Below, piece by piece: positions 14,155 through 63,427 of a stretch of 64,000 nt of DNA. Source of the DNA: Pseudomonadales bacterium (GTDB lineage: Bacteria > Pseudomonadota > Gammaproteobacteria > Pseudomonadales > DC-out160); the NCBI GenBank assembly GCA_019090455.1, contig JAHRWA010000074.1, positions 157,345 through 221,344 on the forward strand. The letters run 5' to 3'. The position numbers were made by a program, and so were the translations under genes. Within the stretch, counting starts at the first letter, position 1, and each line of letters begins with the position of its first letter. The notes below the pieces were generated by a model, which was not told the origin of the DNA, made no database searches, and saw nothing but the letters and a program-made list of their open reading frames with translations.

Positions 14155-15706
14155 TCAAGAACGGTTTCGGCATATTCTGGTGGATGAATTTCAAGATACC
14201 AACACCATACAAAATGCCTGGCTGCAGTTACTGACCACTGGCACCACTAATAAAATGACAATTGTAGGAGATGACGACCAATCAATTTACGGTTGGCGTG
14301 GCGCCCGAATTGAGCATATACAGGAATTTGATCGTGATTTCCCAAACGCAGACATTATTCGCTTAGAGCAAAACTACCGCTCTACGGGGGTTATATTAGC
14401 CGCAGCAAACAGTGTAATTCGAAAAAACGAAAGTCGCCTGGGAAAGGAGTTGTGGACGGAGGCTTCTGATGGCGACCTCATCACTGTCTATGCCGCATTT
14501 AACGAGTTGGATGAAGCAAGGTTTGTAGCGGAACAAATTCAAAACTGGGTCGACGATGGAAATAGCCGTAGTGAAGTGGCTATTCTTTATCGTTCAAACG
14601 CACAGTCACGGGTCATGGAAGAAGCATTACTCAGATGTAGTATTCCTTATCGGATTTACGGTGGTTTGCGGTTTTTCGATCGAGCTGAAATTAAGAATGC
14701 GATGTCCTATCTTAGATTAGTTGAATACAGAAATGATGATACGGCCTTTGAGAGAGTGGTGAATGTACCGCCCAGAGGTATCGGCAATCGTACTGTTGAA
14801 AAAGTACGAGAAGTGGCTCGAGACGAAGGTAGTAGTCTTTGGAGTGCGGCAATGAAGGTGGCGGAGGAAAAATTATTGCCCGCCCGTGCTGCCAATGCCA
14901 TAAAGGATTTCGTAGCATTAATAAATCTGTTAGATGAAAGTACACAGGGATTGGCTTTGTCAGAACAAGCAGAACATGTGATTGAATCATCGACTTTGTT
15001 AGCTCATCATAAAAATGAAAAGGGTGAAAAAGGGCAGACTCGTGTTGAAAATTTAAAGGAGCTGGTGAGTGCTTGCCAACAATTTGGTAGTGAAGTGGAG
15101 TTAGAAGGCGATCAATCCTTATTGAGTGCATTTGTGGACCATGCGGTGTTGGAGTCAGGGGAAGGCCAGGCGGATGAATTTGAAGACTCAGTTCAGTTGA
15201 TGACATTGCATTCTGCCAAAGGATTGGAGTTCCCAACCGTTTTTATGGTGGGTGTGGAGCAAGGGTTATTTCCGTCAAGAATGTCCATCGAGAGTTTAGA
15301 TAAAATAGAAGAAGAAAGACGATTGTGTTACGTGGGAATAACAAGAGCGATGAAACACCTGACAATTTGCTATGCAGAAAGTCGGCGTTTATACGGAAAA
15401 GAAACGCTCAACAGGCCCTCACAATTTTTACGCGAAATCCCAAAAGAAACAATGCAAGAAGTACGAGTTAATACAAGTGTGGTTCGACCCACTACGTTTA
15501 CAGCCGGTGGAACTAATGAATCTTCGGTTACTGAACATGATGGCGTATTTTATGAGATAGGACAGCAAGTGAGGCACAGCACCTTTGGTGAGGGTTATAT
15601 TTTAAATTGTGAAGGTAGTGGCCCGCGTGCACGTATAGAGGTTAATTTTGATCTAGAAGGCAATAAATGGCTAATGGCGCAATATGCAAAGCTAGAGATA
15701 CTGTAA
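13529..15706 (+). CDS. uvrD: DNA helicase II (UvrD/Rep superfamily 1A)
   Basis: 3'-5' DNA helicase for nucleotide excision and mismatch repair. The 725-residue protein has Walker A GAGSGKT (residues 30-36), TFTNKAAAEMR, motif II VDEFQDT (Asp219/Glu220), motif III GDDDQSIYGWRGA, QNYRS, and motif VI YVGITRA. The C-terminal HSTFGEGYI segment is the UvrD Tudor-like tail. The N-terminus MDISHIISSLNEPQR matches UvrD rather than Rep. Its 5' third is duplicated upstream as a pseudogene. Confidence 0.96.
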   Translation: MDISHIISSLNEPQRLAVTSEADRLLVLAGAGSGKTRVLVHRIAWLIQAENHSPFEILAVTFTNKAAAEMRYRIEDLLNIPVSGMWVGTFHGLAHRLLRTHWQDAKLPQSFQILDSDDQLRLIKRIMKEQGIDDARIPPKQVQWYINHCKDEGRRADHIEEFDMIAKWQLQIYHSYEDACQRGGMVDFAELLLRAHELWLHNPKLLKHYQERFRHILVDEFQDTNTIQNAWLQLLTTGTTNKMTIVGDDDQSIYGWRGARIEHIQEFDRDFPNADIIRLEQNYRSTGVILAAANSVIRKNESRLGKELWTEASDGDLITVYAAFNELDEARFVAEQIQNWVDDGNSRSEVAILYRSNAQSRVMEEALLRCSIPYRIYGGLRFFDRAEIKNAMSYLRLVEYRNDDTAFERVVNVPPRGIGNRTVEKVREVARDEGSSLWSAAMKVAEEKLLPARAANAIKDFVALINLLDESTQGLALSEQAEHVIESSTLLAHHKNEKGEKGQTRVENLKELVSACQQFGSEVELEGDQSLLSAFVDHAVLESGEGQADEFEDSVQLMTLHSAKGLEFPTVFMVGVEQGLFPSRMSIESLDKIEEERRLCYVGITRAMKHLTICYAESRRLYGKETLNRPSQFLREIPKETMQEVRVNTSVVRPTTFTAGGTNESSVTEHDGVFYEIGQQVRHSTFGEGYILNCEGSGPRARIEVNFDLEGNKWLMAQYAKLEIL

Positions 15707-47519: not shown

Positions 47520-49547
47520 TTATAGGGTCGCGTTAATCGTAAATATATCTTCCCCCTCCAGTTCAATTTTGACAGTACCCCCAGAGGTTTGTTGAAATTT
47601 GAGATCTTCAATTGTTAAGTCTTTATTAAGTTTCTGAGCGATGCCGCCAGAAAAGCGCAATGACTCGGGTAACGTTAGGGTCAGAGTCTGCTTTCTCTTG
47701 GATTTATTCACGCCAATAATACTAATTTGATCCTTCTCACCTTCACTAGATCTATTCTTTGTCGAGATCGCAATATCAACCTCAACTGAGGGATTGGTGA
47801 TGCTCACGCTTTTGTCTAGCATGCTTTCACTTAGGAATGACATTGCGAGCCCAACGGGCTTAAGTTGAAATTGGCCGCGTTTTTTAGTCACCAGGCCTTT
47901 GTTGTAAGTACCGTCATCGGCGGCCTTAAACCAAACCAGCTGCGCCAGATCTCCCGATCGAATGCTTTGGCAAATGACGGAGGTCCACCACAATGCAGCA
48001 AAAAAGGTATCTTGTTCATAGGGGCTAAGGGATTGCCCGCTGGATATATTAGTCTGACTGATGATGAGCGGTCGCGCTACGCCATCGGATTTAGGGTATT
48101 TTTGCGAGAGTTTTCGCGCCTCGATAATCGAGTCGTAAAACCATTCGGTGGCAATCAAATCTCGCACCAGCCATTCATGCCAGCTCAATGCATCCACTAA
48201 GTCCGGATGGTGTTGTAATAATTGTTCCGCCCATTGATATCCGCTGCGGTGATCTGCACCTTGGCGCGTCGGACCATTCAAGAAACGGGATGCTTGCGGT
48301 GCTGCAAAAAGTGTCTTGGCTATGAGCGGGTTGCGACTCGCTTTGATTGCACCCACGATGGTGAGGTAATCATTTTCAAATTCAGAGTAGCTGCTGTAAT
48401 TTAGGTTGGGCTCATCGGCAATGGCAATATAATAGTCCGTTAACAATCCTTCCTTGTGGCGTGATTCTAAATATTGCATAAGAAAATGTCGCGTTTTGAC
48501 GGCATTGTTGATAGTGGCTATTCGTCCTGTTTTGGCGCGTATGGAGACACCTTGTTTTATGTTAAATCGCTGTTCGTATAATTCAAGGAAGCGGGAATCA
48601 AAGCCTCTTTTTTTAATTAGAACGTCTTCAAAGAAATACAAGTTAGAGGCTTTCAAATGTAATTGGTCGATGAGAGGGTAGGTGCTCTCTGGTGGAATGG
48701 AGAAAGGTAAAGCCGCACCTAGTAACGGCGTCTGACCCTTAGTAGATTGTCCGCCTTTAATGGGATTGCTGACAGACACGGAAACTTGGCCTGGCGCTAG
48801 CTTGGGTATAAATAAGTGTTCGGCTCGTTGCGCAAACAAATTATTGACTCCATCGAGCCAAAAACTGACTTTTCCGCTACCACCAAAGATGAGAGTCCAG
48901 GTGATCTCTTGATCTTGTGCCGGTATGGCGAGAGATTGGAAATCACTGTACAGACCTCGTTGGCTTTTCTTGAGTGCGAGTCGGTATTTGTTTTTTGAGT
49001 TTTCCGAGTCCGCTATGGAAAGTGACGAAACGCCTTTATAGTATTTGCCGTTAAGGCTGAAGGCCGTGTTGGCAGGTACTTTAAAAAATAGCTGAGTGCC
49101 GCTCGCAATGGAGACTGACTTATGCACCTTCACGGGTTCAAATACGATGGCAGTATCACGATCGACGGAAAGAGTATAATTACGAAAGCTAGCGCCCGGA
49201 ATTTCTAAACGGTAGTCGCCTAATGTTTCAATCACGTTGAAGGTATGAGTTCCACTGATCTTTGAGTGGGGGATGGTGAGGCGTTGTATTAGCCTACCCG
49301 TAGGCGATTGCCAATAAATTCTCTCTTCTTGGCTATTAGCAATCCATGCGTCGTTCCAGCGAAGATCGACTTTGGGTTCGTTTGGGTGACTGACTTGATG
49401 CCTGATATAAAAAACACCGTCACGAATGTTGGGCCAGACTTGGCTGGTGCGAGGCGATGCATCGCAGGCAGTTATAACGACGCAGGGTATAAGTAGAAGA
49501 AAAACGCTGCAATAGGATATGAGGCGTAACAAATTTTTTGGGATCAT
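47520..49547 (-). CDS. Secreted glycosidase-like lipoprotein of the exopolysaccharide operon
   Basis: The 675-residue protein has an N-terminal signal with a lipobox-like VITAC (Cys about residue 28), so it is probably a periplasmic or outer-membrane lipoprotein. The first 300 residues look like beta-rich carbohydrate-binding modules. The central part (about 310-560) resembles a TIM-barrel glycoside hydrolase of clan A: IADEPNLNYSS is a candidate acid/base strand, SWHEWLVRD and LIISQTN follow, and VWFKAADDGTYNKG lies late. A beta-sandwich ends it. It may cut or edit the polymer; family not certain. Last gene of the operon. Confidence 0.6.
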   Translation of the reverse strand: MIPKNLLRLISYCSVFLLLIPCVVITACDASPRTSQVWPNIRDGVFYIRHQVSHPNEPKVDLRWNDAWIANSQEERIYWQSPTGRLIQRLTIPHSKISGTHTFNVIETLGDYRLEIPGASFRNYTLSVDRDTAIVFEPVKVHKSVSIASGTQLFFKVPANTAFSLNGKYYKGVSSLSIADSENSKNKYRLALKKSQRGLYSDFQSLAIPAQDQEITWTLIFGGSGKVSFWLDGVNNLFAQRAEHLFIPKLAPGQVSVSVSNPIKGGQSTKGQTPLLGAALPFSIPPESTYPLIDQLHLKASNLYFFEDVLIKKRGFDSRFLELYEQRFNIKQGVSIRAKTGRIATINNAVKTRHFLMQYLESRHKEGLLTDYYIAIADEPNLNYSSYSEFENDYLTIVGAIKASRNPLIAKTLFAAPQASRFLNGPTRQGADHRSGYQWAEQLLQHHPDLVDALSWHEWLVRDLIATEWFYDSIIEARKLSQKYPKSDGVARPLIISQTNISSGQSLSPYEQDTFFAALWWTSVICQSIRSGDLAQLVWFKAADDGTYNKGLVTKKRGQFQLKPVGLAMSFLSESMLDKSVSITNPSVEVDIAISTKNRSSEGEKDQISIIGVNKSKRKQTLTLTLPESLRFSGGIAQKLNKDLTIEDLKFQQTSGGTVKIELEGEDIFTINATL

Positions 49548-49565
49548 TACCGTTTTAGTCTTCCT

Positions 49566-50975
49566 TTATGATTGAGCTTTTTTCTTATTAATATAATCCT
49601 TGCTTATCGTCACTATCCAGCGGATGTCCTGTGGTGTGACTAAGCAAGTGACCAGGGCGGATGTTCCGGTGATCTGGCGATATTCTCTAAACAGAAATAC
49701 GGCCGCTATTCCGTAGCAAATACTCGATGCGATGGCGGTACCATTGATTCCCCAGATAGGAATGAAGATAACGTTGAGTATCATGTTAAGAAAGAAGGCG
49801 CTGCCGGAAATAATTGAGACCGTACCAGGACGGTTTTTACCGAGCATATCAAGACGAATTAAACTCGCATAGCTTAAAAAGACGATCCCAGGCAGTAGGC
49901 ATACTAAAGGTTCGTAGGCGGGTAGGTAGTCGCGGCCGAACAAGATGAGAATAAGCCACTGGCCTAAGATAGCCATGCCAATCGAGCAAACAATCATAAT
50001 GTTGACGATTAATCTTAATACCAATGGTGTGACCTTCTCCTTCTCTTGGTCGTTGTCTCCCATAAGAAAGGAAAATAACGGTAAGGTGATAGAGGTGGGA
50101 ATCGTCAATAGCAGTTCTGCGGCGGCCGTTGCCATAGCGTAATAACCGAGAGCTTCCGTGCCCAACATGGCACCCACAAAAACAAAATCCACTCGCAACA
50201 ATAGTTTTTGAAATAAGGTATCAAAATGACCTCGAACGCCATAGTGGGCCAGTTGCTTTTGTGTCGCCCATTCGAATCGAGGAGGGAAGAAGGGGCGCAT
50301 CCAAAAAAGGCTGACAATGACAATGGCCGTCATGGTTCCGAAAAGAGAATAAACGGCGGCGTTAATGCCGGGCATATCGAATACCCACCACAATAGTAAA
50401 AATAAAATTAAGGGGAGCCCCGATTCCATAAGGGATAGAGTGTTGACTTTCCCTACCCAGTTTTGAGAGGTGAGTAAATTAATGTTAATAAATTTAAAAA
50501 GTAAAATGGGCACAAGAAATACGATGAGCCACGTGAAGGGAATTAACGCTTGGTCTTGGCCTTTCACCAACCAAGGAGTATGAATCACGAGATAAGCTAC
50601 AAAGGCTAGAAAACTGCCCATAGACAAACAAAATAAAAGGGTGGAGCCGACTAAAGCCCCCATTTTGTTTTTGTTTCTTGAGCCATAATAAGCGACTGAA
50701 TTGCTATAACCCATATTGCCGATAGACATAATCAAATCCGGTATTGCCCCGATTAAGGCAAACAACCCACGATCGGCAGGGCCTAATACTCTGGCAAGTA
50801 TCGCGTTGCGTACCAATCGTAGAAGGATCATCAGAATCTTGGTAACAAAGCTCTGACCGATTTGTGATATGAGTTTATCAGCATCGATTGTGGAAGATCT
50901 ATTATCGGTGGAAGATGCTATTGTGTTTGGATCAACGATTTTGTCCTGGGATGCCTTCTCTTTTTTATCAGGCAT
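49566..50975 (-). CDS. Wzx-like polysaccharide flippase (MATE/PST superfamily)
   Basis: The 469-residue protein has about 12-14 hydrophobic segments after a hydrophilic N-terminus (about 40 residues). NAILARVLGPADRGLFALI near residue 60 is the typical polysaccharide transporter segment. It would flip undecaprenyl-diphosphate-linked repeat units to the periplasm. Overlaps the upstream deacetylase gene by 8 nt, indicating coupled translation. Confidence 0.88.
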   Translation of the reverse strand: MPDKKEKASQDKIVDPNTIASSTDNRSSTIDADKLISQIGQSFVTKILMILLRLVRNAILARVLGPADRGLFALIGAIPDLIMSIGNMGYSNSVAYYGSRNKNKMGALVGSTLLFCLSMGSFLAFVAYLVIHTPWLVKGQDQALIPFTWLIVFLVPILLFKFININLLTSQNWVGKVNTLSLMESGLPLILFLLLWWVFDMPGINAAVYSLFGTMTAIVIVSLFWMRPFFPPRFEWATQKQLAHYGVRGHFDTLFQKLLLRVDFVFVGAMLGTEALGYYAMATAAAELLLTIPTSITLPLFSFLMGDNDQEKEKVTPLVLRLIVNIMIVCSIGMAILGQWLILILFGRDYLPAYEPLVCLLPGIVFLSYASLIRLDMLGKNRPGTVSIISGSAFFLNMILNVIFIPIWGINGTAIASSICYGIAAVFLFREYRQITGTSALVTCLVTPQDIRWIVTISKDYINKKKAQS

Positions 50976-51957
50976 GAGGTCGTCTCTTCAAATCATGAAT
51001 GCTCGCTTTGAAGAGACGATACTGAAACAAGCTATTACTCTCAGCAACGTCATAGGGAATATTGATACGAGGCAATTGATATCGTCTCTGGTCGTTGAAA
51101 TGCGTTAAACCACAATCCACTGAAACGGCAGCGTCGAATCCTTGTTGCTTAACAATTTCTCGAGTCTCTTCATTACTATTGCCGTTTGGAAAACTGAAGA
51201 CATTACAGTAGTTAATGTTATCGCGATTCCGCAGTACCGCTTGTGAATCGATGATTTCTTTTTTGGCATCGTTGGTGGGGAGCGTCGTTAATATTGTGTG
51301 GTTTGCTGTGTGCGGGCCAAACTCGATGCCATGCTTCGACATCTCTTCCACTTGCGTCCAATTCATAGCATGTGGTCTGTCTTGTTGCGTGGATAATTTG
51401 AGTAGTTCCATCACAATATGCTCAATGTCATCTTGTGGTTTGCTCTTTAGCTTTGTGATGACTTTATCAATAAGAAGAGAATCAAATGAAGGTGAATTAT
51501 GAATGCCAGCGTCAAGCAAGCCATAAGTCATCAAGCAATTTATCATGGGCGCTTGTTGATTCGCGTCAGGGGCACTTAAAATGTCACCTACTGTCTGCCA
51601 CCAAAACCCTTTGCTGCTACCTATAAAGGCGGTAGCAAGAAAAATAGTGGCAGGTAATTTCAATTCTTTTAACAGGGGGTAAGCGTATTCGTAATTATCA
51701 CACCAACCGTCATCTAGGGTAATAATGGCATAGCGTTCTTTTTTGTTATGACTCGCTTCCTGACTTATCGTTAAATACTCCGTGAGTGAAATGACGGAAT
51801 AATTGGCTCTAAGAAAAAGTAAGTTTTCTCTAAAGCCTTCCGCGCTAGCGATCAGTGCCTTTTGAAATTGACTGGGAGCGATGAGATCTCGAGGTATGAT
51901 TCTGTGGTACATGAGCATTATGCTTTTGCTTTGTTGGCAATACTGATTGAAACCCAC
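50968..51957 (-). CDS. Polysaccharide deacetylase (NodB domain)
   Basis: The 329-residue protein has MYHRI near residue 17, ITLDDGWCDNYEYAYPLL (NodB motif 1 with Asp-Asp) and FGPHTANH (motif 2 His-x3-His), so metal binding is intact. Members remove N- or O-acetyl groups from glycans. Start is a GTG at 51957; an ATG 13 codons in is an alternative. No clear signal peptide, which suggests a cytoplasmic or ill-defined location. Lies inside the exopolysaccharide operon. Confidence 0.88.
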   Translation of the reverse strand: MGFNQYCQQSKSIMLMYHRIIPRDLIAPSQFQKALIASAEGFRENLLFLRANYSVISLTEYLTISQEASHNKKERYAIITLDDGWCDNYEYAYPLLKELKLPATIFLATAFIGSSKGFWWQTVGDILSAPDANQQAPMINCLMTYGLLDAGIHNSPSFDSLLIDKVITKLKSKPQDDIEHIVMELLKLSTQQDRPHAMNWTQVEEMSKHGIEFGPHTANHTILTTLPTNDAKKEIIDSQAVLRNRDNINYCNVFSFPNGNSNEETREIVKQQGFDAAVSVDCGLTHFNDQRRYQLPRINIPYDVAESNSLFQYRLFKASIHDLKRRPHA

Positions 51958-52021
51958 TAGCGATGCAGACTGGCCGACTATTTTCTTAAAGGAAGTGAGA
52001 GCGATGTTAGCGATTTTTGAA

Positions 52022-53263
52022 TTACCTGTTGGATTGAGGGGACCATTGTGTAAAACGCTCCCCTATTAGAAAACGAAAAACACCCATTCCCAAGGCAAAA
52101 CTGCTGAGTAAGAGAAATCCCGCCATTGTAAAAGGCTTAGGTAAGCGTTTCCCTGCATCGACAAGTCCCGCAATGGCACTGAGATAAAAAACGATTTGAC
52201 TGATTAAAGTAACGCTATAAAAAACAGAAAAACCGGATTCCATCGTATGGCTAGTCACAATCGCGATATTGAGTGGAAGCAATAGCATGGCAAAGAAAGG
52301 CACGAATCGTCTAATTAACTTATGGCTGATGAGACAGATTGCATAGATACCGTATTGAAAAGGATTCAACAGCCGGCGTCTGCGCCAGAGGCTGCGCATA
52401 CCACGGACAGTCACGCGTATTCTTCTACGATATTGGCTACCGGCAGTTTCAACTCCTTGGTCAAAGGCTAAAGCGGAGCTTTGATAAACTAGCGAAAAGC
52501 CTTTTTCTACTGCCCCTGTGCTAATAAAAAAATCATCTGTCACGTCGGGTGGAACGGGATCGAATAGTGCTTTTCGAATGGCAAAGATACCGCCATCGGC
52601 AGACACAGCACTACCCAATTGAGTTTCGCAGGAACGAATGTAGGCTTCATAGTTCCGGTAAAGGCGGTCGCCTAATCCAAGGTTCTGATATTCCCCCTCA
52701 ATAGTGAGGCGTCCCGAGACAGCGCCCACCTGATTTACCGAAAATGGCGCGAGCAATTGAGTGAGCGTATCGGCTTGCCAATGATTGTCGGCGTCGCTAA
52801 AGACTAATATATCGTGTTGTGCTGCGTCAGCTCCGGCATTGAGTGCTGCGGCTTTACCGCCACGCGGTAAATCGAGCAGGCGTATTGAGGGGGCGTCTAT
52901 TGAGCTGGGCTGATCGCATTGTGCTGCAATATACGATGTAACGAGGTTGGCAGTGTTGTCATCGGAGCCATCGTTTAGAACAAGAATTTCAATATTATTT
53001 AGTTGATAGTGCTGATTGCAGAGAGAGTCCAATTTCGCCGTTATATTGTCTTCTTCATTGTAGGCTGCCACTAGAATACTGACGTTGGATGCACCCATAC
53101 TGTTGGCGTCGTTTGTACTGCTTGCGTTTTGCGTAGGCAACATGGGATCGGAGCGAATGAACCAACTGAGAACACTCACCAACATGGGATAGCCTAGATA
53201 GCCGTAAAACCCAAGAGCCGCGATGAACCAAAAACTAAAACATGCCAAATCATTGAGTGTCAT
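52022..53263 (-). CDS. Membrane family 2 glycosyltransferase
   Basis: The 413-residue protein has N-terminal membrane segments (FWFIAALGFYGYLGYPMLVSVLSWF, about 11-35), a GT-A domain with VSILVAAYNEEDNI, LNDGSDDNTA, the metal-binding DAD in LVFSDADNH, and TDDFFIS (catalytic-base region), then a Q-x-x-R-like SQYRRRIRVTVRG and three or four C-terminal helices. This is the processive/hyaluronan-synthase-like type (BcsA/NodC subfamily). Overlaps the upstream GT2 gene by 14 nt. Confidence 0.9.
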   Translation of the reverse strand: MTLNDLACFSFWFIAALGFYGYLGYPMLVSVLSWFIRSDPMLPTQNASSTNDANSMGASNVSILVAAYNEEDNITAKLDSLCNQHYQLNNIEILVLNDGSDDNTANLVTSYIAAQCDQPSSIDAPSIRLLDLPRGGKAAALNAGADAAQHDILVFSDADNHWQADTLTQLLAPFSVNQVGAVSGRLTIEGEYQNLGLGDRLYRNYEAYIRSCETQLGSAVSADGGIFAIRKALFDPVPPDVTDDFFISTGAVEKGFSLVYQSSALAFDQGVETAGSQYRRRIRVTVRGMRSLWRRRRLLNPFQYGIYAICLISHKLIRRFVPFFAMLLLPLNIAIVTSHTMESGFSVFYSVTLISQIVFYLSAIAGLVDAGKRLPKPFTMAGFLLLSSFALGMGVFRFLIGERFTQWSPQSNR

Positions 53264-54242
53264 TTATTTTCCCCTTAACGACTTCAATACACTTTTCAAC
53301 GAAAGCCATCGCAACTGAATATCCGGCAATGTAAAATCGCAACCAATATAAAAGACTAAATGACAAAATGCTGTATCCATTCTTTCGACTATAGGGGTAG
53401 CGTAGTGTAAGAGCTAAGCTGGGTATCCAAGTTAGGATGAATAGAAGTGGCGCTATGTAGGTTGTTTCAATCATTACAATTGCGATACACAGAGCGATCC
53501 CAATACAGTGGGCCACGCTCAACAAAGGAAACCGAAGTAGGCGCAAGGATAGGCCTTGGTGTAACAGTAGATCTAAGTGAGAATGCTGACGCCAATATTC
53601 CTTTCGACACCATTCATAAAATGTGCGTTCGTAACCTAAATGTATCATCTCTAAGCTAGGGTCTGAGATGACCTTGGCCCCTGCTTTAGACAGTCGCATA
53701 GTGAAGTCCTTGTCTTCACCCGTTTTCAGTTCTGTATTAAAACCTGATATCCGCTGAAACCATTTTTTGGTGACGGCTATATTTCTGCCAGGAAGACTAT
53801 CTATCTCTCTCAATGTACTGCGTCTGGCGGTGGCTCTGAGAGACCAGGTTTTCGCATACCAAGATGCTTCTTCTGGTGCTTTATCCACAAAACCAATAGC
53901 ATCGGTATTGGGTTGATCCGGATTCTCACCGTAAAATCGGTCTTCAAGGGTATCGAGCCAGAGTGGATCGACTTGGATGTCAGAATCGAGGAATAAAAGC
54001 ACATCGCCGCGAGCCATTTCTGCTCCGAGATTACGTAGTGTTGCAATTGAAACTTGGGCTTGAACCTGTACACGTGCTCCAAAACTGCGGGCAATCTCAG
54101 GTGAATTGTCAGACGATCCATTATCCATTAATAAGATTTCAACGCCGGATCGACTGCCTATTGCGACGACGATGCTTTCTAGGCATCGGCTAAGGACGTG
54201 AGATTCATTGTAGCAAGGGATAATGATAGAGAAACTAGTCAT
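53250..54242 (-). CDS. Family 2 glycosyltransferase with C-terminal membrane segments
   Basis: The 330-residue protein starts TSFSIIIPCYNESHVLSRCLESI, a standard GT2 opening, followed by LLMDNGSSDNSPEIA, the metal site LLFLDSDIQV, and LKTGEDKDFTMRLSKAG (ED catalytic base). Two hydrophobic segments (about 235-290) lie near the C-terminus. Overlaps both neighbours (14 nt with the downstream GT2, 8 nt with the Wzy-like gene). Confidence 0.9.
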   Translation of the reverse strand: MTSFSIIIPCYNESHVLSRCLESIVVAIGSRSGVEILLMDNGSSDNSPEIARSFGARVQVQAQVSIATLRNLGAEMARGDVLLFLDSDIQVDPLWLDTLEDRFYGENPDQPNTDAIGFVDKAPEEASWYAKTWSLRATARRSTLREIDSLPGRNIAVTKKWFQRISGFNTELKTGEDKDFTMRLSKAGAKVISDPSLEMIHLGYERTFYEWCRKEYWRQHSHLDLLLHQGLSLRLLRFPLLSVAHCIGIALCIAIVMIETTYIAPLLFILTWIPSLALTLRYPYSRKNGYSILSFSLLYWLRFYIAGYSVAMAFVEKCIEVVKGKINDTQ

Positions 54243-55635
54243 GAGTAGTCTCCGGTTTCAGAATGGGTTTCTTCATGTGCGCATACCCCAGTAGGATATG
54301 AGAGCAGGCTAGCAGAAACCAAAAGTACTTGTGATTGGTGCCACTGAGAAAGAGTAAAAATAAGATAACACTCAAGTAGGCTAGGCCTATATGGGTCACA
54401 AGGTCTGCGCTGGCAATGTCTTTATTTCTGATGAAAATGATTCTGGCTCGGGAATAGTTATTGGCTCCCAAACCAACCGCAGCGAGAAAACACCCGATTC
54501 CAAACAATCCTGTTTCGGCTGCGACTTCAAGATAAGTATTGTGGGCGCGCCGAAAAATATCCGGGTTCTTTTCACTGAGATTAAAGGCAATAGAGTAGCC
54601 ACTTTTCGCGTAAAGGGTAGGGAATGTACCCGGACCCGCACCAAAGAATGGATGCTCCTTTAGGGCATTTGCGCCGACGATGATATAAGAGGTTCGACGT
54701 CCCAGTGAGCGGTCATCAACTGATTTAATGCCGGAGGTAATCCCAGCCAGTGACTTGATTCTATCGACGTATTTTTCCGGCATCACGATGGAGACCACTA
54801 TTAAACCGAAGACACCTGCGATAAAGAACAACACTAATTGACGAGGATGAATTCTGGGTATGCGCTTTTGATGGTGCCAACCCATGGTTGCGATGACTAA
54901 CGCTAACACCACCAGACCTGAGCGCGAGAATGTTTTGACAAATGCCACTAGCAATACCGCCAAAGAACCCGCCCAAAAAATCCGAAGTAACGATGTACGA
55001 CTTTGAAAAATTAAGAAAATAGCGAGAGGAATTGCGGTGGTGAGTAGCAAGGCAAAGTAGTTTGGGTCTGACAATAGCCCCGTACTTCTTTCATCACCAG
55101 TATCTGAGGCGGTTAGAATCGCCAGTCCTGAAGTGGCCGCCACACTGATGACCAGGGCTCTCATTACCCAGAGAAAATCAATACGTTCTTTTACCGTTAG
55201 TGTAATGACAAAGAGAATGATGGCGATGACAAGTTGGCGTAGGGTATTGTAGGAGAGACCGATATAAGGTGTTTCAAAACTACTGACAATGGAGACAATA
55301 AAGAGTCCCCCTACTCCCCACCAAAGGGGCGTAGACAAGTTGTTGAGAGCGCTGCTTCGAAAAACGATGCGTAGCGCGAGAACACCGATTAATGCCATCC
55401 CAATTAACTTTGATCCCGATAGAAATGAGCTACCGGCAAAGAAACCCTCAAAGGGTACGAGGAAGATAAGTCCCAACAGTCCCCACTCCGGTCGAGCAAA
55501 AAGGACAAAAGCGCCGATGATGGCAACAGCAAGTCCTGGGGCTAAAAAATAATAGGGCGTCAGTAGTAGTACCCCAGAGATGGCCATCAATACGATTGCG
55601 GCGAAGTAGTATCGTGCATCAGGGTATCTCGCCAT
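54235..55635 (-). CDS. Wzy-like polysaccharide polymerase (O-antigen ligase family)
   Basis: The 466-residue protein has about twelve membrane segments and the O-antigen ligase domain: a periplasmic loop with SVDDRSLGRRTSYIIVGANALKEHPFFGAGPGTFPTLYAKSG, RRAHNTYLEVAAETGLFGIG (H-N-x-Y-L-E, conserved). In this Wzx/Wzy-type operon it is most likely the polymerase that joins repeat units in the periplasm. It is only one base from the GT4 gene. Confidence 0.88.
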   Translation of the reverse strand: MARYPDARYYFAAIVLMAISGVLLLTPYYFLAPGLAVAIIGAFVLFARPEWGLLGLIFLVPFEGFFAGSSFLSGSKLIGMALIGVLALRIVFRSSALNNLSTPLWWGVGGLFIVSIVSSFETPYIGLSYNTLRQLVIAIILFVITLTVKERIDFLWVMRALVISVAATSGLAILTASDTGDERSTGLLSDPNYFALLLTTAIPLAIFLIFQSRTSLLRIFWAGSLAVLLVAFVKTFSRSGLVVLALVIATMGWHHQKRIPRIHPRQLVLFFIAGVFGLIVVSIVMPEKYVDRIKSLAGITSGIKSVDDRSLGRRTSYIIVGANALKEHPFFGAGPGTFPTLYAKSGYSIAFNLSEKNPDIFRRAHNTYLEVAAETGLFGIGCFLAAVGLGANNYSRARIIFIRNKDIASADLVTHIGLAYLSVILFLLFLSGTNHKYFWFLLACSHILLGYAHMKKPILKPETTHD

Positions 55636-55636
55636 A

Positions 55637-56809
55637 TCAGACGCAGGCCTCTTGATAATAATTCGTCAGCTTCATCGATTGGGTATTCATGCAATGGTGT
55701 TCGTTGACCTTATCGAATGCCCCCTTGAGAATATCGTTGCGCAGTTTATCCTCGGTTATTAAGTTAAGGCACGCGCGGCAGAAGTCTTCATGATGGCCGG
55801 TGTCCACTAGCATCCCAGTGACGGTGTTTTCGATAAGGTTGGGCATGCCGCCTACATTGGTACTAACGATGGCGGTTTTAAGTGCCATCGCCTCCAGTGC
55901 GACTAGTGGTGTACCTTCTGTTTTTGATGTGATCGCAAGCAGCGTGCTCGCTTCGAGTAGCGCTGCAGCATCCTTTCTGTAACCCGCCAGTTTTATATGC
56001 TGTTGAAGCTGGTGTTGAATAATATAGTTTTCTAGTTGTTCCTTCTGGGGACCGGAACCAATGATGAGACCTCGGATGTTATTGTCTTTCTTAATTAATA
56101 ATGAGAGGACTTCAAGGAAAAAAAGTGGGTTTTTTTCATCGCTAAGACGCCCCAGGAAACTAATGACGTTATTGTTATAATTCCAACCAAATTCTTTAAA
56201 CGGGTTGACATCCTCTGACCTCCTATCTTGTTTAGGGGGTATAGGAATCGCGTTTTTAACAATAACTAATTTTTTCGGTTGTACACCAAAATGTTGGTAT
56301 GTTTTAAGAATGGTATCTGTGACGCAGATAATTTTCTTGACGGAATAGAATCGGCAGATCGTTTTCCCAATTAAATTGTAGAGTTTTGATTTCGAATTGC
56401 GTGCCGTAAATCCGTGTTGCGTAACTAACATAGGAAGGCGGAAATAGAGACTGGCCAACATGGCAATCACCAGCGCTTTATATCCGTGTGCGTGTAAAAC
56501 GCATTGTTTCGGAACGCTAGATCGCGATTTTACTAAGTGTCGCAATTGTTGTAGCGCAGGGGCGAGTTGATTCGCGGTGGTATAAAATTGTGTATTCGTC
56601 GTGTCGTTGACCGCCGCCGCGAAATCTTGAACAGAGGTTACGTCATTGCAGAGACATAGAACATCGAAACGATGGCGAGCCATACTCTTGCATTGATTGG
56701 CGACAACGTGCTCTGCACCAAAAAAGCCAGAGGAACTAATAATGTGGATGACGGAAGGTAAGTCATCGTCTAGTTCATTAGCCACTTCACTATTCCATTC
56801 ACTGACCAT
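55637..56809 (-). CDS. Family 4 glycosyltransferase
   Basis: The 390-residue protein has VIHIISSSGFFGAEHVV near the N-terminus, HAHGYKALVIAMLA, VTQHGFTAR, and the C-terminal domain FLGRLSDEKNPLFFLEVL, IGSGPQKEQLE and TSKTEGTPLVALEAMALKTAIVSTNVGGMP with the E-x7-E pair. It resembles PelF/EpsD-type GT4 enzymes that add a sugar to the lipid-linked chain. Its proposed start overlaps the co-polymerase gene by 40 nt; a slightly later start is possible. Confidence 0.9.
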   Translation of the reverse strand: MVSEWNSEVANELDDDLPSVIHIISSSGFFGAEHVVANQCKSMARHRFDVLCLCNDVTSVQDFAAAVNDTTNTQFYTTANQLAPALQQLRHLVKSRSSVPKQCVLHAHGYKALVIAMLASLYFRLPMLVTQHGFTARNSKSKLYNLIGKTICRFYSVKKIICVTDTILKTYQHFGVQPKKLVIVKNAIPIPPKQDRRSEDVNPFKEFGWNYNNNVISFLGRLSDEKNPLFFLEVLSLLIKKDNNIRGLIIGSGPQKEQLENYIIQHQLQQHIKLAGYRKDAAALLEASTLLAITSKTEGTPLVALEAMALKTAIVSTNVGGMPNLIENTVTGMLVDTGHHEDFCRACLNLITEDKLRNDILKGAFDKVNEHHCMNTQSMKLTNYYQEACV

Positions 56810-58365
56810 TCAAAAGGTTCAATATCCTCAACCACATCCATATCGTCGAAACAGGCAATTAAAGGAATACCCAGTTGCTCTTCAATTTGATCAGGAAATT
56901 TAAATCGGTGATCAAAAAATTCTTTGAGTAGCCCTAAGGTAATGGAGATGAGTAAGCCGGCCACCAGTCCAATCAAAACAACGAGGAGAGGTTTCGGAGA
57001 GCTAGGTTGCTTGGGTATGATGGGTCGAGTGAGAATTCGAACGTTGGTCAGTTGATCCATGTCAGAAAATTCTTCTGATCGTTTCTCTTCGTATTGTTGA
57101 CTGTATTTGAAATAGGCATCATTGACTGCTTCCAATTCGGTGGACAGTTCTGATTCTGCTGCAGCGACTGTTTTTAATACTCTCGTGCGCTCGCCAAATC
57201 GGCGTATTCTTTCGAGTTTCGATGTGGATAGGGATTCAATAACTTGTAATGCTTTATAACGCTCCGTAATTCTGTTTTGAATTAGCGTAATGAGTCTCTC
57301 TTTTTGTAGTTTTATTCGGCGAATTAATTTCGTCACCTTTGGGCTATCGACTCTAAACGAAAGTCGTGCATTCGCATATTCGCTGTGGAGTCTGGCTATT
57401 TCTCGACTCTCTTCTTTCATCTCTGTGTCGATGTAGACATCACGACCTGTGCCGCTACTGCCACCAAAAGAGAAGGGGAAAGTACTTTTGGTGACATCGG
57501 CTTTTTTCAAACTGGCAAGCTGTTCTTCCAAATAGATAAGCCATTGGGTATTTTCAAGATGCTTATCCTGGAGTTGATCCAGTGCTCGACGTTCAGCGTT
57601 AATGTTTCCTAATGTTAGGCTTAATTCTTCTCGAGGATGAGATACATTATTATCGTTGAACAGCACCAATTTTTGTTGTTCTATTTCATTTAGCCGTTTT
57701 CGGTAACTCTTTTTCTTTTGTAGCAGAAATTCATTCGGCGCATCATTCAGCAAAAGCTCATGGCGTTTAATCAAGTATTGGTCCATGAGTTCGTTGACAA
57801 TTATTTGTGCAAGGGTAGGGTCTTCACTTTCATAGCTGAGGCTAATCACGTTTGAACCTGGAATGGTAGCAATGGTTAAGCTACTGAGGACCATGTCAGT
57901 GTATTGGTCGATAGCGTCGCCATGGGGGTCAGATTCCGATTCAGTCATCATTGATCTCAGCGGTGCTGTGATGTGGGTTTCAATTGGCAGACTAATCCAT
58001 TCATTTATCCATTCATCGATGAATGACACTTCTTCTGTGAATACGCCTTTTTCATAGAGTGCTGCAACAGAACTACGAATAAGGGGAATTGAGCGGATAA
58101 TATTATTTTCAGTTTCCATGTCTGATAGGCTGACGGGAATATAGCGAGCACTACTTTGTGCCAGAGCGCCTTGGGGGCCTTGCTGAATTTTTTTGGAAAG
58201 TACGATTATTTCCCCCGTCACAGTGAAAGTGTCAGTTAATGCTAATGGGACGAGAAAAGAGATAACCGCGAAACCAATAAATATTCTTTTAATAAAAAGA
58301 GTATTGGCAAAAAACATACCGAGAAACTCTCGGATATAGCCACTCTGAATGTTCGAACTGCTCAT
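56770..58365 (-). CDS. Wzz/GumC-like polysaccharide co-polymerase
   Basis: The 531-residue protein has two membrane helices (about 25-47 and 470-492) flanking a long periplasmic part with several coiled-coil heptads (about 200-440), the architecture of PCP-2a proteins that set chain length and pair with an OPX exporter. It lacks a fused kinase domain; the separate CpsD-like protein at 59481 would fill that place. PKQPSSPKPLLVVLIGLVAGLLISI is the Pro-rich TM2 segment. Confidence 0.92.
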   Translation of the reverse strand: MSSSNIQSGYIREFLGMFFANTLFIKRIFIGFAVISFLVPLALTDTFTVTGEIIVLSKKIQQGPQGALAQSSARYIPVSLSDMETENNIIRSIPLIRSSVAALYEKGVFTEEVSFIDEWINEWISLPIETHITAPLRSMMTESESDPHGDAIDQYTDMVLSSLTIATIPGSNVISLSYESEDPTLAQIIVNELMDQYLIKRHELLLNDAPNEFLLQKKKSYRKRLNEIEQQKLVLFNDNNVSHPREELSLTLGNINAERRALDQLQDKHLENTQWLIYLEEQLASLKKADVTKSTFPFSFGGSSGTGRDVYIDTEMKEESREIARLHSEYANARLSFRVDSPKVTKLIRRIKLQKERLITLIQNRITERYKALQVIESLSTSKLERIRRFGERTRVLKTVAAAESELSTELEAVNDAYFKYSQQYEEKRSEEFSDMDQLTNVRILTRPIIPKQPSSPKPLLVVLIGLVAGLLISITLGLLKEFFDHRFKFPDQIEEQLGIPLIACFDDMDVVEDIEPFEWSVNGIVKWLMN

Positions 58366-58395
58366 CTGTTGTACCTATTGTTTTCTTTATCGGAA

Positions 58396-59484
58396 TTACT
58401 CGTTGGTATCGCTGGTGGTAATTCTTCCTTTGTCATCGACTCGATAGGAAAAGCCCATACCAAATCCATTAAACAGCATGGCTGAACTGACTTGTCGTGC
58501 TACGTTAGCAGTGGATGCCAATTTTGTTCTCGGTAAAAAGATGACATCGTCGGCTTGTAGAACGCCGAGTGATCCAAACTTGTTAGCTTTTAAGGCGGCC
58601 TTGAGATTGTAAACTTTCGCCTCCACTTGTGTTCCTTGACGACGTAACAAGAGCACGGACTCGAGTTTGGCTTGTCGGCTAGCACCACCCGCCATGGCAA
58701 GGGCTTCGAATAAGGTAATTGAGCGCGTGATGAGGTGGGAGCCTGGACTATTCACTTCACCCATCACATAGAAATAACGAGGATGAGTCTTGTGGACAAA
58801 GAGATTGACTTTGAGATTGGGATTGACAGTTTGGTAGTGTGTGTTTGCGATGGATTGGATTTCCCGCAGAGACTTGCTTTTGACATCAATTTCTCCAATG
58901 AGAGGAAAGGAGACGCGGTAATCGCTACGCACGGTTAACAGTCGCGATCGTCCGTAGTTGGGGTGGTCCAAAGACCGTTGCAATTGCTTGAGGTGTACCT
59001 GGTATTCTTTTATGGATACGTAAAAGTTAGGCTCTTTTAATATGGGTTGGTAGAGCTTAGTGAGAAGATCCTTGATTTGAGTGGTGGTTCGGTCGCTTAC
59101 CTTAACGTCACCGACAAAGGGCAGCGAGATATAGCCATCAGGTCGTACTTGATGAATGTCATTGTATTCGGAAGCGGTTAAAAATTTAATCTCAATTAAG
59201 TCGTGGGGTGCAGTTCGGTATATTTCATTCGATAAGGTATCAAATTGGAAGAACACATCAATTACGTCCTCTGGATGCAGTGTGTGTTGTGTCGGAGGAC
59301 GTAATCCTTTTCCTGAAACTTGGCCGTCGGTAGCGGTACTGGTACTCCCAGCTTCTTTCGTACCATCAATGTTTTTAGCGCTTTCAATATTAAGGAAGTA
59401 TTGTTTTTCAGTTGGGACCACGCCGCAGGATAGCAATAAGCAGCTGGCTAATACGATAAGACCGAGTTTCATTCTGTTTTTCAT
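58396..59484 (-). CDS. Wza-like polysaccharide export lipoprotein (OPX)
   Basis: The 362-residue protein is an outer-membrane lipoprotein by its signal (LIVLASCLLLSC, lipidated Cys20). It contains the poly-export domain (LHPEDVIDVFF, IHQVRPDGYISLPFVGDVKV) followed by one or two SLBB beta-grasp repeats (YFYVMGEVNSPGSHLI), then a C-terminal tail. It should form the periplasm-to-surface channel with the Wzz-like protein. Overlaps the CpsD-like gene by 4 nt. Confidence 0.92.
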   Translation of the reverse strand: MKNRMKLGLIVLASCLLLSCGVVPTEKQYFLNIESAKNIDGTKEAGSTSTATDGQVSGKGLRPPTQHTLHPEDVIDVFFQFDTLSNEIYRTAPHDLIEIKFLTASEYNDIHQVRPDGYISLPFVGDVKVSDRTTTQIKDLLTKLYQPILKEPNFYVSIKEYQVHLKQLQRSLDHPNYGRSRLLTVRSDYRVSFPLIGEIDVKSKSLREIQSIANTHYQTVNPNLKVNLFVHKTHPRYFYVMGEVNSPGSHLITRSITLFEALAMAGGASRQAKLESVLLLRRQGTQVEAKVYNLKAALKANKFGSLGVLQADDVIFLPRTKLASTANVARQVSSAMLFNGFGMGFSYRVDDKGRITTSDTNE

Positions 59485-60104
59485 AACCAGTTATAGACCC
59501 ATTGCGGTACATAATATTTACGTTTGTTGAATATGGCGCCGATGAGTGTGGCACCCGCTTGGCTCAGTTTCCGTTGCGCGGCTCTTGCCACTTCCCAGCG
59601 TGTATCTTCGCCGGCAATGACTAAAACGACACCGTCGAAGGCGGAGGCAAGTGCCAGCCCTTTAGCCGATTCGTGTATAGGGGGGGCATCAAAGAGGATG
59701 TAATCATAATCCAATAACAGCTTGTCGAGCATGTTTTGCAAAATCTCTCTGTCCTTCACTTGGCTAGTATCCTGATCCAATTTGCCGTACGCCAGGACGT
59801 CGAAGTGGTAGGGATAAGGGTGATCTATCCAGCTACCAACATGCTCAATATTGTCTTTGCTATCCACATTGACATAGCCCCATTCCTCTTGGAGATCAAA
59901 ATGGGTGCTAATTCTGTTGGCGTGGTAGTTGCCGTCAATGAGAAGAATCTTCTCCGAGACATTCGTGGCCAATGCTTCGGCTAGCGAGATGGCTATGGTT
60001 GAGGTGCCCATATCCCGTGATGGCGCCGTAATATAGAGCGTTTTGACTTTTTTATCTAAAATAGTTGAAGTCAAATTCAATCGGGTGGGGTTGATCGTCC
60101 GCAT
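59481..60104 (-). CDS. CpsD/CapB-like ATPase with degenerate Walker A
   Basis: The 207-residue protein is related to bacterial tyrosine-kinase/ParA-like partners of polysaccharide co-polymerases. Walker A' (KILLIDGNYHANRIS, Asp57) and Walker B (YDYILFDAPPI) are present. The P-loop reads SRDMGTST (residues 29-36); the family has PGEGKST, so the ATP-binding Lys is Thr34. The tail contains a Tyr cluster (KRKYYVPQWVYNW), the usual autophosphorylation zone. Loss of the Lys suggests a pseudokinase or a regulatory protein. Confidence 0.88.
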   Translation of the reverse strand: MRTINPTRLNLTSTILDKKVKTLYITAPSRDMGTSTIAISLAEALATNVSEKILLIDGNYHANRISTHFDLQEEWGYVNVDSKDNIEHVGSWIDHPYPYHFDVLAYGKLDQDTSQVKDREILQNMLDKLLLDYDYILFDAPPIHESAKGLALASAFDGVVLVIAGEDTRWEVARAAQRKLSQAGATLIGAIFNKRKYYVPQWVYNWL

Positions 60105-60252
60105 AACTTCCTTGAATAAGTGGGGTACATGTTATTAACGATAGAAGGTTACACCACATGCAGGGGGAAAAGTGCTCAAGATATTGATTTTTTATATATT
60201 GTTAGCTAACAATATCGAAGAGAGGGGGTTGTCAAAAAAGAGAGACGCCAAT

Positions 60253-61140
60253 TTAGTAGGCGCCATCCCCTCTGATCACAGTTAAAGGTGTTTTTAATAG
60301 GATAATGAGATCGGATAGTGGGCCTTGCTTCGCGATGTATTCCTCATCCAATTTGACTCTCCCGTCAAATCCGATATTGCTACGACCCGATATCTGCCAA
60401 ATTCCGGTTAATCCTGGGTAAGCGGCTAAGCGTGTCAGATGGTGTGGTTCGTAAGTGCTGGCGCAAAAAGAAGTGGGGCGTGGGCCGACCAAACGCATGT
60501 CCCCATTCAATACATTAAGGAACTGTGGTAATTCATCTAAACTGTATTTTCGAAGGAAAGCGCCAATTTTCGTGATTCTGGGATCATTCTTGGCTTTGAA
60601 ATCGGGTGAGCTGTCCTCATGTTGATTTAAATGCGCTATTTCAGCTTTTAATGCTTCGGCGTTATTGACCATGGTTCTGAATTTGAACATGTTAAAGCGT
60701 CGCCCCATATACCCAGTGCGTTTTTGGTAGAAGAACACGGGACCTTTACTGGTTAATTTAATTAAGATGGCGATGCAAAGCATTAAAGGCGAAATGAGAG
60801 CTAGTGCGATTGCGGCAATCGAGGAGTCGATCAGTCTTTTGGTCAAAGAGAGATTCCAGCTGCTTCCTTTGTTCTTGCGTCCAGTCAACCAGCAGTTATA
60901 TTCACTCTGGCGAGCATCTTGAATTCTATTACGCAATTGTCTGTTCGAGCGTTTGCAAGTGCCAGTCGTCTCAGTAGTCTCTCTAAGGTGAGCATTTCCC
61001 ATGTGAATTTGTTGTCCGTTTACTGCAGGTATTGAATGAAGGCTGATGCCAGATGTAGCGAATGGAGTCGCATTAGTGTCAGAAAAATTGACACTTTTTC
61101 TATTCAACATGGGTGTAAAATCTAATGAGCTATGAGGCAC
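60253..61140 (-). CDS. Undecaprenyl-phosphate sugar-1-phosphate transferase
   Basis: Starts repeat-unit assembly by putting a sugar-1-phosphate on undecaprenyl phosphate. The 295-residue protein has one membrane helix (about 104-130) and the catalytic sugar-transferase domain: GPVFFYQKRTGYMGRRFNMFKFRTM, KYSLDELPQFLNVLNGDMRLVGPRP, YPGLTGIWQISGRSN (family-typical). It lacks the four extra N-terminal helices of WbaP/WcaJ; instead about 100 hydrophilic residues precede the helix. GTG start; GGGAG nearby. First gene of the leftward operon. Confidence 0.92.
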   Translation of the reverse strand: MPHSSLDFTPMLNRKSVNFSDTNATPFATSGISLHSIPAVNGQQIHMGNAHLRETTETTGTCKRSNRQLRNRIQDARQSEYNCWLTGRKNKGSSWNLSLTKRLIDSSIAAIALALISPLMLCIAILIKLTSKGPVFFYQKRTGYMGRRFNMFKFRTMVNNAEALKAEIAHLNQHEDSSPDFKAKNDPRITKIGAFLRKYSLDELPQFLNVLNGDMRLVGPRPTSFCASTYEPHHLTRLAAYPGLTGIWQISGRSNIGFDGRVKLDEEYIAKQGPLSDLIILLKTPLTVIRGDGAY

Positions 61141-61541
61141 TATTTCGTTCTCCCGATATGACGTAGAATTACTGGGAGCATTTCGATCCGTGAATGCTTC
61201 TGGATGATACTAATCTTTTGCTTATTAGCTATTGGTTATAAAAAACGATTATTATTATGTGAACAGAGTCTCATTGTATTGGCGTGAGTGTTTAAAAACA
61301 ATCGTTTGGACTGATCTTTACAACTCTGAACAGTCAGTAACATCATTTTGTGAGGCAACCGTCTTTCTTTGCTTGATATTGAAATTTAATAAGCTACGTC
61401 CGGCTGCCAATGTAACCATAAACCTTTATATGTAAGTCAATTTGTAACATTTGGGTGTTGCTGATTTACAGTCCATAATTAAGTCTAAAATGTTGATAAA
61501 ATTGAGTGGTAAAGCCACGTTTAGGGTTTGGTGATCTGTAT
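61141..61541. other. 401-nt divergent control region of the exopolysaccharide operon
   Basis: No gene is seen. CTCCC (61150-61154) and GGGAG (61174-61178) form a short inverted repeat next to the sugar-transferase start. It must carry the operon promoter (leftward) and that of the acyltransferase gene (rightward). Composition is AT-rich. No long palindrome or obvious riboswitch was found. Confidence 0.45.
61273..61301 (-). promoter_or_regulatory. Candidate promoter of the exopolysaccharide operon
   Basis: On the minus strand TTGTTT (61296-61301), a 17-nt spacer and TACAAT (61273-61278) give a sigma70-like pair. It is about 130 nt ahead of the sugar-transferase start, leaving a leader long enough for regulation. 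Confidence 0.35.
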
Positions 61542-62684
61542 ATGAGTGGTTTTGATGTCAGCTGGTTCGACAATGTAAGCTCTGCAGTGACGCCCGTCGA
61601 ATACGATGGTTTGATAGAGAGAGTGCCTGGTGCAACCGTTTTCAACTCTTGGCCCTGGGTGACTGCTTGCAGCGACCACCTATTATCAAATGAGGCCATT
61701 AGCGTGTTAACGATTCGTTCGAGGGACGAGACGTTGATCGCGATAGCACTAACAGTGGTAAAAATCGAGAATTTGTATGGCATAAGGACTAAAGTCGCTC
61801 GTTTTGTTGGCGTGCCTTATGGGGATCGTTTTTCGCTGTTAGTCGATCCTAAAATCGATAAATTGATGCCTGTTTTTTTAGACAATCTCATCAACCATGC
61901 TCCGGATTCTTGGGACTATTTTGTTTGGAACGAGTATTTGGAAGATGCAGAGATTGATCCGAAAATTGAATCTTGGGCCAAGGGTTCTCACCCGCGATTT
62001 TATAAAATCGCAACCTCTCATTGCCCTGTGTTACCACTGTCGACTCTGACTCGGGAGGAGATGGAAAAATCGTATTCTAAAAATATGAAAACAAGATTGC
62101 GTCGTGGTAGAAAGAAGTTGCAAGCAGCGGGTGATGTGGAGATTACTCATTATCGACCGGATGAAAATAAAGTCGCCGCACTTCTAGATGAAATTAGAGC
62201 CGTTGAGGAACGAAGTTGGAAGGGTGAGGATGGTGTCGGTATTTTTTCTCGTGGGAGTTTTGCATTTTTCAAAGATGTGTCTCAGCGTTTAGCGAAACGC
62301 CAATTATTGGATGTGGCTGAAATCAGGATTAATGGTGAGTTGGCTACCTATCGATATGGGTTTTGTTATAGAGGGGTGTTTCTCGATTATAACTTAGCGT
62401 TTCTGCCAGAGTATAAAAAAATTGGCTTAGGTCGGATTTTATTGGATGAAATAATCCTGAGTGCTTTAGATAATGGGTATTCTGCTTTGGATGGATCTCG
62501 AGTCGGGGTGAACTCAAGACACTTACTTTTTGAACGCACGGAAAAAACCGTGAGGCATTTGAGATGGTATTGGTATAGCAATAGCTTTAAGGGTTTATGT
62601 ATCCAATTCATTATAGAATTTGCCAAGCCTATGGGGAGAAAATGGCGGGATAAAATCAATGCCCTTTTAAATGATAAAAATTAG
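61542..62684 (+). CDS. FemAB/CelD-like GNAT acyltransferase
   Basis: The ATG at 61542 (MSGFDVSWFD) is preferred over a start at 61506; GGTGA lies 7 nt upstream, giving 380 residues. The protein has the BcsL/CelD acetyltransferase pattern: NSWPWVTACSDHLL near the N-terminus, KNMKTRLRRGRKKLQAAG, and FLDYNLAFLPEYKKIGLGRILLDEI near the C-terminus. Relatives occur in exopolysaccharide loci and may acylate a sugar or protein. It is transcribed opposite to the operon. Confidence 0.85.
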   Translation: MSGFDVSWFDNVSSAVTPVEYDGLIERVPGATVFNSWPWVTACSDHLLSNEAISVLTIRSRDETLIAIALTVVKIENLYGIRTKVARFVGVPYGDRFSLLVDPKIDKLMPVFLDNLINHAPDSWDYFVWNEYLEDAEIDPKIESWAKGSHPRFYKIATSHCPVLPLSTLTREEMEKSYSKNMKTRLRRGRKKLQAAGDVEITHYRPDENKVAALLDEIRAVEERSWKGEDGVGIFSRGSFAFFKDVSQRLAKRQLLDVAEIRINGELATYRYGFCYRGVFLDYNLAFLPEYKKIGLGRILLDEIILSALDNGYSALDGSRVGVNSRHLLFERTEKTVRHLRWYWYSNSFKGLCIQFIIEFAKPMGRKWRDKINALLNDKN

Positions 62685-63427
62685 CGATCCCTTTTTTGAC
62701 GTTGTTTATGTTTGTTGAAATCGTCGTATCGATTTTTGCTGTACTTTTCAGACTGGAACCAACGCATATTGAATAATTGATGCATATAGAGAACTTCCCC
62801 CATTTCTTCAAAGCCCAAGTGAAATTGGATACGCAATGAGGGTATATTTGTTGCTTCCACGGTACAGTAGTTGGTAGTCATTCCCTTTTCTTGCCATTCG
62901 TTCCATGCGGTGTGGCATAAATCAACGCTGACGTGCTTGTTACGAAATGGTTTACACACCTCAGCTGCAAATTGAAATGTTTGGTGTGGTTTTACCTTGA
63001 AGTTATATTGATAGTGGTGAACGTCATCATAGTCTGTGTTTGAAAACCACAGAATGGCAATGACGTCACCGGTTTTGGTGCAGAAAGAGGCGTAGCCTGT
63101 CTTCCCTAACGTTAAAAGCTTTTTGTAGACTTCGATGTGTTGCTCAAAGTGGGTGCGGCAAGCGGGTAGATCGGCTTCGGAAAGCTGCCGGCTTTGCCAC
63201 AGTGAGGAGTCTTTGTATTTTTTTCTGGGCTTACTCAAACCTAATTCGAGTAACACCAAAGTCCTTCTGCGGTAAATGAGTTTGGCAAATATTTTTTTTA
63301 GAATGCCGCTGAAACCGACCTCTTGTATGCCTTGTGATAACTTGTTTATTAAAGTGCTGTCAGTCACCGGAATGCTTTCTCCCCAATTATTGGAATGTGT
63401 TTTTTTTCCAAAAGTGTTAGTTGTCAA
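62681..63427 (-). CDS. GNAT-like acetyltransferase, 248 residues
   Basis: The protein shows a GNAT-like acetyl-CoA-binding layout: VIAILWFSNTD (strand 4), QFAAEVCKPFRNKHVSVDL in place of the usual R/Q-x-x-G-x-G/A P-loop, and VEATNIPSLRIQFHLGFEEMGEV, the N-x-x-S-x-x-h-x-x-x-GF motif typical of GNAT C-termini. The N-terminal 70 residues are not recognised. It overlaps the convergent gene by 4 nt. A sugar acyltransferase role in the exopolysaccharide locus is possible but unproven. Confidence 0.6.
   Translation of the reverse strand: MTTNTFGKKTHSNNWGESIPVTDSTLINKLSQGIQEVGFSGILKKIFAKLIYRRRTLVLLELGLSKPRKKYKDSSLWQSRQLSEADLPACRTHFEQHIEVYKKLLTLGKTGYASFCTKTGDVIAILWFSNTDYDDVHHYQYNFKVKPHQTFQFAAEVCKPFRNKHVSVDLCHTAWNEWQEKGMTTNYCTVEATNIPSLRIQFHLGFEEMGEVLYMHQLFNMRWFQSEKYSKNRYDDFNKHKQRQKRDR

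Follow-up and report, generated by a model that had tools for sequence, protein, structure and literature searches.

A Pap-type Wzx/Wzy polysaccharide operon outside Pseudomonas, with a conserved glycosidase-fold protein of unusual predicted active site

A 64,000-nucleotide stretch of DNA from a Pseudomonadales bacterium (hereafter the window) contains a complete Wzx/Wzy-type polysaccharide operon of eleven genes. Judged by sequence and gene order, these correspond as syntenic orthologs to papC-papM in the Pap (Pseudomonas acidic polysaccharide) cluster, a little-studied set of biofilm-polysaccharide genes reported from soil Pseudomonas. It is an already known kind of system, present here outside Pseudomonas. 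Two further genes, papO and papN (61506-63427), are part of the locus, so that the unit extends past 61140. The evidence consists of homology, gene order, conserved motifs, predicted fold and genome context, and we consider it very likely that papC-papM with papN and papO form a Pap-type Wzx/Wzy-dependent operon, a variable island flanked by rpmG and the hydantoinase-mutM genes, which works as proposed below. The genes, in window coordinates, are:

papC, 60253..61140, minus strand: initiating sugar-1-phosphate transferase (PF02397, 5e-60)
papD, 59481..60104, minus strand: small CpsD/CapB-type tyrosine-kinase-like protein (Pfam AAA_31)
papE, 58396..59484, minus strand: Wza-type outer-membrane export lipoprotein (Poly_export, SLBB; lipobox LLSC from the sequence)
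papF, 56770..58365, minus strand: Wzz/PCP chain-length protein (GNVR; two membrane segments)
papG, 55637..56809, minus strand: GT4 glycosyltransferase (Pfam)
papH, 54235..55635, minus strand: Wzy polymerase (Wzy_C; ~10 hydrophobic segments)
papI, 53250..54242, minus strand: GT2 glycosyltransferase (Pfam)
papJ, 52022..53263, minus strand: GT2 glycosyltransferase with membrane segments at the C-terminus
papK, 50968..51957, minus strand: CE4/NodB-type de-N-acetylase (Polysacc_deac_1, 5e-22)
papL, 49566..50975, minus strand: Wzx-type flippase (Polysacc_synt_3)
papM, 47520..49547, minus strand: exported glycosidase-fold protein, 675 aa (predicted structure)
papO, 61506..62684, plus strand: GNAT/FemX-like acyltransferase (PF13480), divergent from papC
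papN, 62681..63427, minus strand: GNAT-fold acyltransferase, overlapping papO tail-to-tail by 4 bp

The eleven minus-strand open-reading frames run from 61140 down to 47520, the same outer limits as those drawn in the earlier note, whose description of eleven packed or overlapping genes is borne out by the open-reading frame list and Pfam: neighbours mostly overlap or lie no more than ~30 bp apart, with larger gaps of 64 bp between papK and papJ and 148 bp between papD and papC. Those limits hold for the eleven genes, whilst the unit itself continues with papO and papN to 63427. Pfam also agrees with the note's reading of a Wzx/Wzy-type operon with a NodB-type deacetylase (Polysacc_synt, Wzy_C and Polysacc_deac_1). 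Its statement that the locus is not of PEP-CTERM, alginate, Psl or Pel type stands as well, as the large open-reading frames of the locus are all assigned and include no exosortase, cellulose or alginate genes; XrtA/PEP-CTERM was rejected since the locus proteins scored far under the curated cut-offs of the XrtA-system models. A promoter and terminator scan gave a result no better than shuffled sequence.

The Pap cluster (papA-P) was described in silico from F113 (PMC7716237) and corresponds to PSF113_1955-1970 in P. ogarae F113 and PFL_3078-3093 in P. protegens Pf-5 (PMC7716237, PMC8370652, PMC10850567). In Pf-5 the cluster was selected via promoter mutations (PMC8370652), and a papA mutant of F113 showed altered biofilm stability (PMC10850567). 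Scanning named genomes with a three-sequence PapM alignment as the query returned 80 loci, nearly all of them in Pseudomonas, which share the order kinase-exporter-PCP-GT4-Wzy-GT2-GT2-deacetylase-flippase-glycosidase. The order papC-D-E-F-G-H-I-J-K-L-M is common to the window, gamma proteobacterium HdN1 (without papK) and dozens of Pseudomonas loci, and its conservation across so many genomes rules out chance. In P. corrugata, papA (UDP-sugar dehydrogenase) and papB (epimerase) lie directly before papC, which identifies the cluster as the published papA-P. The window and Pseudomonas loci have the same papC-to-papM order and the same domain in each gene, papN and papO are present in both, and PapM and PapN are orthologous to the Pseudomonas Pap proteins even though they have no Pfam match in the window. 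They differ in that papO is divergent and papN inverted in the window, and in that papA, papB and papP are missing from the window locus. PapC shares ~59-60% identity with the HdN1 gene and 55-59% with Pseudomonas papC. The P. putida Pea cluster (PP_3132-3142) was rejected, its published gene list lacking this order. Comparison of gene content with known loci, which the earlier note had called for, thus shows that the locus is an ortholog of a published cluster and not an undescribed type. The note had also named, as grounds for giving up its view, a near-identical operon with a solved polysaccharide in a described species: the operon order does occur in described Pseudomonas species, yet with only ~26-59% protein identity to the window, and the literature searched gave no polymer structure or chemistry for any Pap locus.

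From these assignments we infer the enzymatic steps and the composition of the polymer. PapC would start the repeat on undecaprenyl phosphate and PapG, PapI and PapJ would add further sugars, so the repeat would comprise about four sugars. On the cytoplasmic side PapK would take the N-acetyl group off an amino sugar, and PapN and/or PapO would place another acyl group onto the freed amine. The repeat would be flipped by PapL and polymerised by PapH, with chain length set by PapF together with a degenerate PapD and export via PapE, whilst PapM, exported to the periplasm or envelope, would handle the growing chain. It would do so by binding the glycan as an assembly factor, or else by cleaving at an N-acetyl sugar with substrate assistance.

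The suggestion that PapD is degenerate comes from its P-loop. CapB/Wzc kinases have the P-loop consensus GK(S/T), and the window PapD has GTST, without the lysine, so it is probably a degenerate kinase that lacks ordinary kinase activity. The P-loop read GTST or GTTT in all eight loci in which the N-terminus was recognised, these representing six genomes as three of the loci (L005, L013 and L113) are one HdN1 gene; most loci gave no P-loop match and were excluded, and in the cases examined this was because the retrieved sequence ended within papD. Orthologs of PapD (window 59481-60104) carry a conserved W-x-Y-x-x-L tail, not a tyrosine cluster.

PapM (675 aa) had no family match in Pfam or NCBIfam. 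Its N-terminus in the window is a hydrophobic segment followed by a lipobox-like ITAC|D, and by the E. coli rule, under which Asp at +2 favours inner-membrane retention of a lipoprotein, this sequence would favour retention in the inner membrane. A simple motif scan found no such lipobox in most PapM orthologs, HdN1 included, so being a lipoprotein is not general to the family. In the AlphaFold model (28 sequences, pLDDT 87, pTM 0.89) a (beta/alpha)8 barrel stands between an N-terminal and a C-terminal beta domain, the modelled arrangement being that of a clan GH-A barrel with a side beta domain. Residues ~254-675 match GH30, GH79 and GH51 structures with Z 27-32, the best match being 1nof (VIA-align Z 32.0, rmsd 3.1 over 351 residues), tied with others; in the structural match lists for PapM and PapN, a family missing from the list is uninformative. 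The lipoprotein glycosidase-like enzyme of the earlier note agrees with the modelled glycosidase-type barrel and the ITAC|D motif, but not with the predicted active site, where the usual nucleophile would be missing.

The residues D378, E379, Q498 and N500 are identical in 83 of 83 aligned PapM sequences. E379 follows barrel strand 4 (DSSP on the model) in the motif DEPN, so that the acid/base Glu position is filled; PslG-like proteins of the same order have NEPN at this site. Residue 498 lies at the end of strand 7, where PapM has QTN versus TEW in PslG-like proteins. Clan GH-A keeps its catalytic nucleophile Glu at the end of barrel strand 7, a position taken in PapM by Gln498 throughout the alignment; the position was assigned by strand order only, as comparison of the PapM and PslG/GH39 profiles yielded no useful alignment and no sequence homology. 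By clan-A rules, the modelled PapM would thus lack the usual catalytic nucleophile; it would then either bind glycan without hydrolysing it or work as an enzyme by some other mechanism.

The Psl system of Pseudomonas aeruginosa resembles the window locus in its Wzx/Wzy-type logic and in having an envelope glycosidase, PslG, within the locus, whilst the psl gene set and order differ from those in the window; PslG has two catalytic Glu residues, whereas PapM has Gln at the second. PapM could be an ordinary retaining endo-glycosidase, trimming the polymer in the manner of PslG in the Psl system, for which the clan GH-A-like fold and the invariant E379 after strand 4 would speak, as would the finding that Psl synthesis needs PslG and its activity (PMC6813494). 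We regard this as unlikely, because the strand-7 nucleophile position is Gln in every PapM sequence, because changing both catalytic residues of PslG (E165Q+E276Q) abolishes Psl production (PMC6813494), and because the PapM and PslG profiles do not align. A further reading, which we would call possible rather than probable, is that in this family invariant residues have taken over two sites, Gln that of the nucleophile Glu and Asp that of the Asn which usually precedes the acid/base residue, and that PapM is either a dedicated pseudo-glycosidase needed for polymer assembly or a GH20-like enzyme with a clan-A barrel turned to substrate-assisted catalysis on N-acetyl sugars. GH20 enzymes use an Asp-Glu pair and substrate assistance, without a covalent enzyme nucleophile (PMC4752478). 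A mechanism of this kind in PapM would fit an N-acetyl sugar, but a binding role is no less compatible with what is seen.

PapK keeps the CE4 motifs D82-D83, H216/H220 and P257-x-G259, the metal and catalytic motifs being conserved in an alignment of 79 sequences, and it matches solved polysaccharide and PNAG deacetylases. No signal peptide or membrane segment was found in PapK, so it should act before the flip and is probably cytoplasmic. In two relatives a second polysaccharide deacetylase gene lies beside papO (L103 6536-7276 and L104 6414-7304), the former with an apparent signal peptide. The predicted structure of PapN (pLDDT 87) is a GNAT fold, with Z 15.4 to a tandem GNAT and, tied behind it, Z 14.8 to a glucosamine N-acetyltransferase. 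With two acyltransferases adjoining the locus, the freed amine may well receive a new acyl group, and there is a parallel in the Caulobacter holdfast polysaccharide, on which the deacetylase HfsH and the FemX-like GNAT HfsK act, HfsK having been proposed to acylate the amines that HfsH exposes (PMC5362036). By analogy, PapN and PapO may re-acylate the amine freed by PapK; as a counterpoint, HdN1 retains papN and papO without papK in its locus, although its genome has deacetylase homologs at other places. A polymer with a partly deacetylated amino sugar is plausible.

The same parallel could be taken further, to the window locus being a holdfast-like adhesin locus in which the deacetylase and FemX-like GNAT act as HfsH and HfsK do in Caulobacter. 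Both systems have this pairing (papK with papO in the window; PMC5362036) and a lipid-linked, flipped and polymerised polysaccharide, but the Caulobacter hfs genes lie in separate operons and come with polar anchors, and the anchor genes hfaA/B/D are not among the assigned genes of the window locus. The HfsH/HfsK pairing is a functional analogy, and we find a holdfast-like adhesin improbable.

In a tree of six concatenated proteins, the window groups with HdN1 and two other gammaproteobacteria, 42_54_T18 and 45_16_T64 (support 1.0), apart from the Pseudomonas group. papO is divergent from papC in all four genomes of this clade, the PapO proteins of the other three sharing 40-42% identity with that of the window, and the papC/papO/papN layout of the window is that of HdN1. 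That the window holds a separate, unrelated exopolysaccharide locus, resembling Pap only in functions common to Wzx/Wzy operons, draws on each of PHPT, OPX, PCP, Wzy, Wzx and glycosyltransferases being common and on the missing accessory genes papA, papB and papP, but is highly improbable, being refuted by the identical linear order that HdN1 and dozens of Pseudomonas loci show, with PapM, which has no family match, in its place, by PapM orthology and by the strongly supported joint tree.

A phylum-wide draw yielded only one PapM genome besides that of the window, so the Pap-type locus is rare. Within the order, PapM is carried by 8 of 391 genomes, counting that of the window. A plasmid search found no PapM. 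According to a published statement, the complete Pap pathway is confined to Pseudomonas; this should be limited to the form containing papA and papB, and even that is broken by Azotobacter beijerinckii, in which this form is also present.

The position of the locus points to a variable island. The window has the order radC, rpmB, rpmG, pap locus, hydantoinase gene and mutM, whilst another genome in this genus, with a mutM 83% identical to that of the window, has radC, rpmB, an EAL/HDOD gene, the hydantoinase gene and mutM on one contig, with no pap genes at the corresponding site. The EAL-HDOD gene in place of the island there spans L116 6246-7457. Elsewhere in the window, a second small glycan cluster (GT2, Wzy-like and GT4; 9338-13472) lies between glmS and a full-length 725-aa helicase gene (13529-15706). 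The N-terminal part of this UvrD/Rep-type helicase is present again as a partial copy of 208 aa (11749-12375), which sits 1.2 kb before the full gene with the GT4 gene between them, an arrangement of duplication around a small glycosyltransferase insertion. A phosphomannomutase/phosphoglucomutase (41743-44433) follows an N-terminal region of ~440 residues with a membrane segment, the long AlgC-like form.

The genes missing from the window locus bear on its product. The open-reading frame list shows no papA UDP-glucose/GDP-mannose dehydrogenase before papC and no papB epimerase, which P. corrugata has, and the whole genome (98% complete) has no PF04794 match for the YdjC-like papP. Of the four PF03721 matches in the genome, two exceed the family cut-off and lie on other contigs (C103 and C14), whilst two are weak and fall below it. 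Nor is papA close to papC in HdN1, 42_54_T18 or 45_16_T64. The product may therefore differ from that of Pseudomonas Pap, and as the name 'acidic' rests on papA and papB, the polymer of a Pap-type cluster need not be acidic.

The conserved core (papC-M, N and O) can now be separated from the precursor genes papA and papB. Within this core, PapM raises an enzyme question, that of a strictly conserved glycosidase fold without the normal nucleophile inside a polymer-making operon, which is open to test in the genetically tractable P. protegens or P. ogarae. Pseudo-glycosidase or substrate-assisted enzyme, PapM would, if either alternative is true, found a new family related to glycoside hydrolases and tied to a specific step of biosynthesis.
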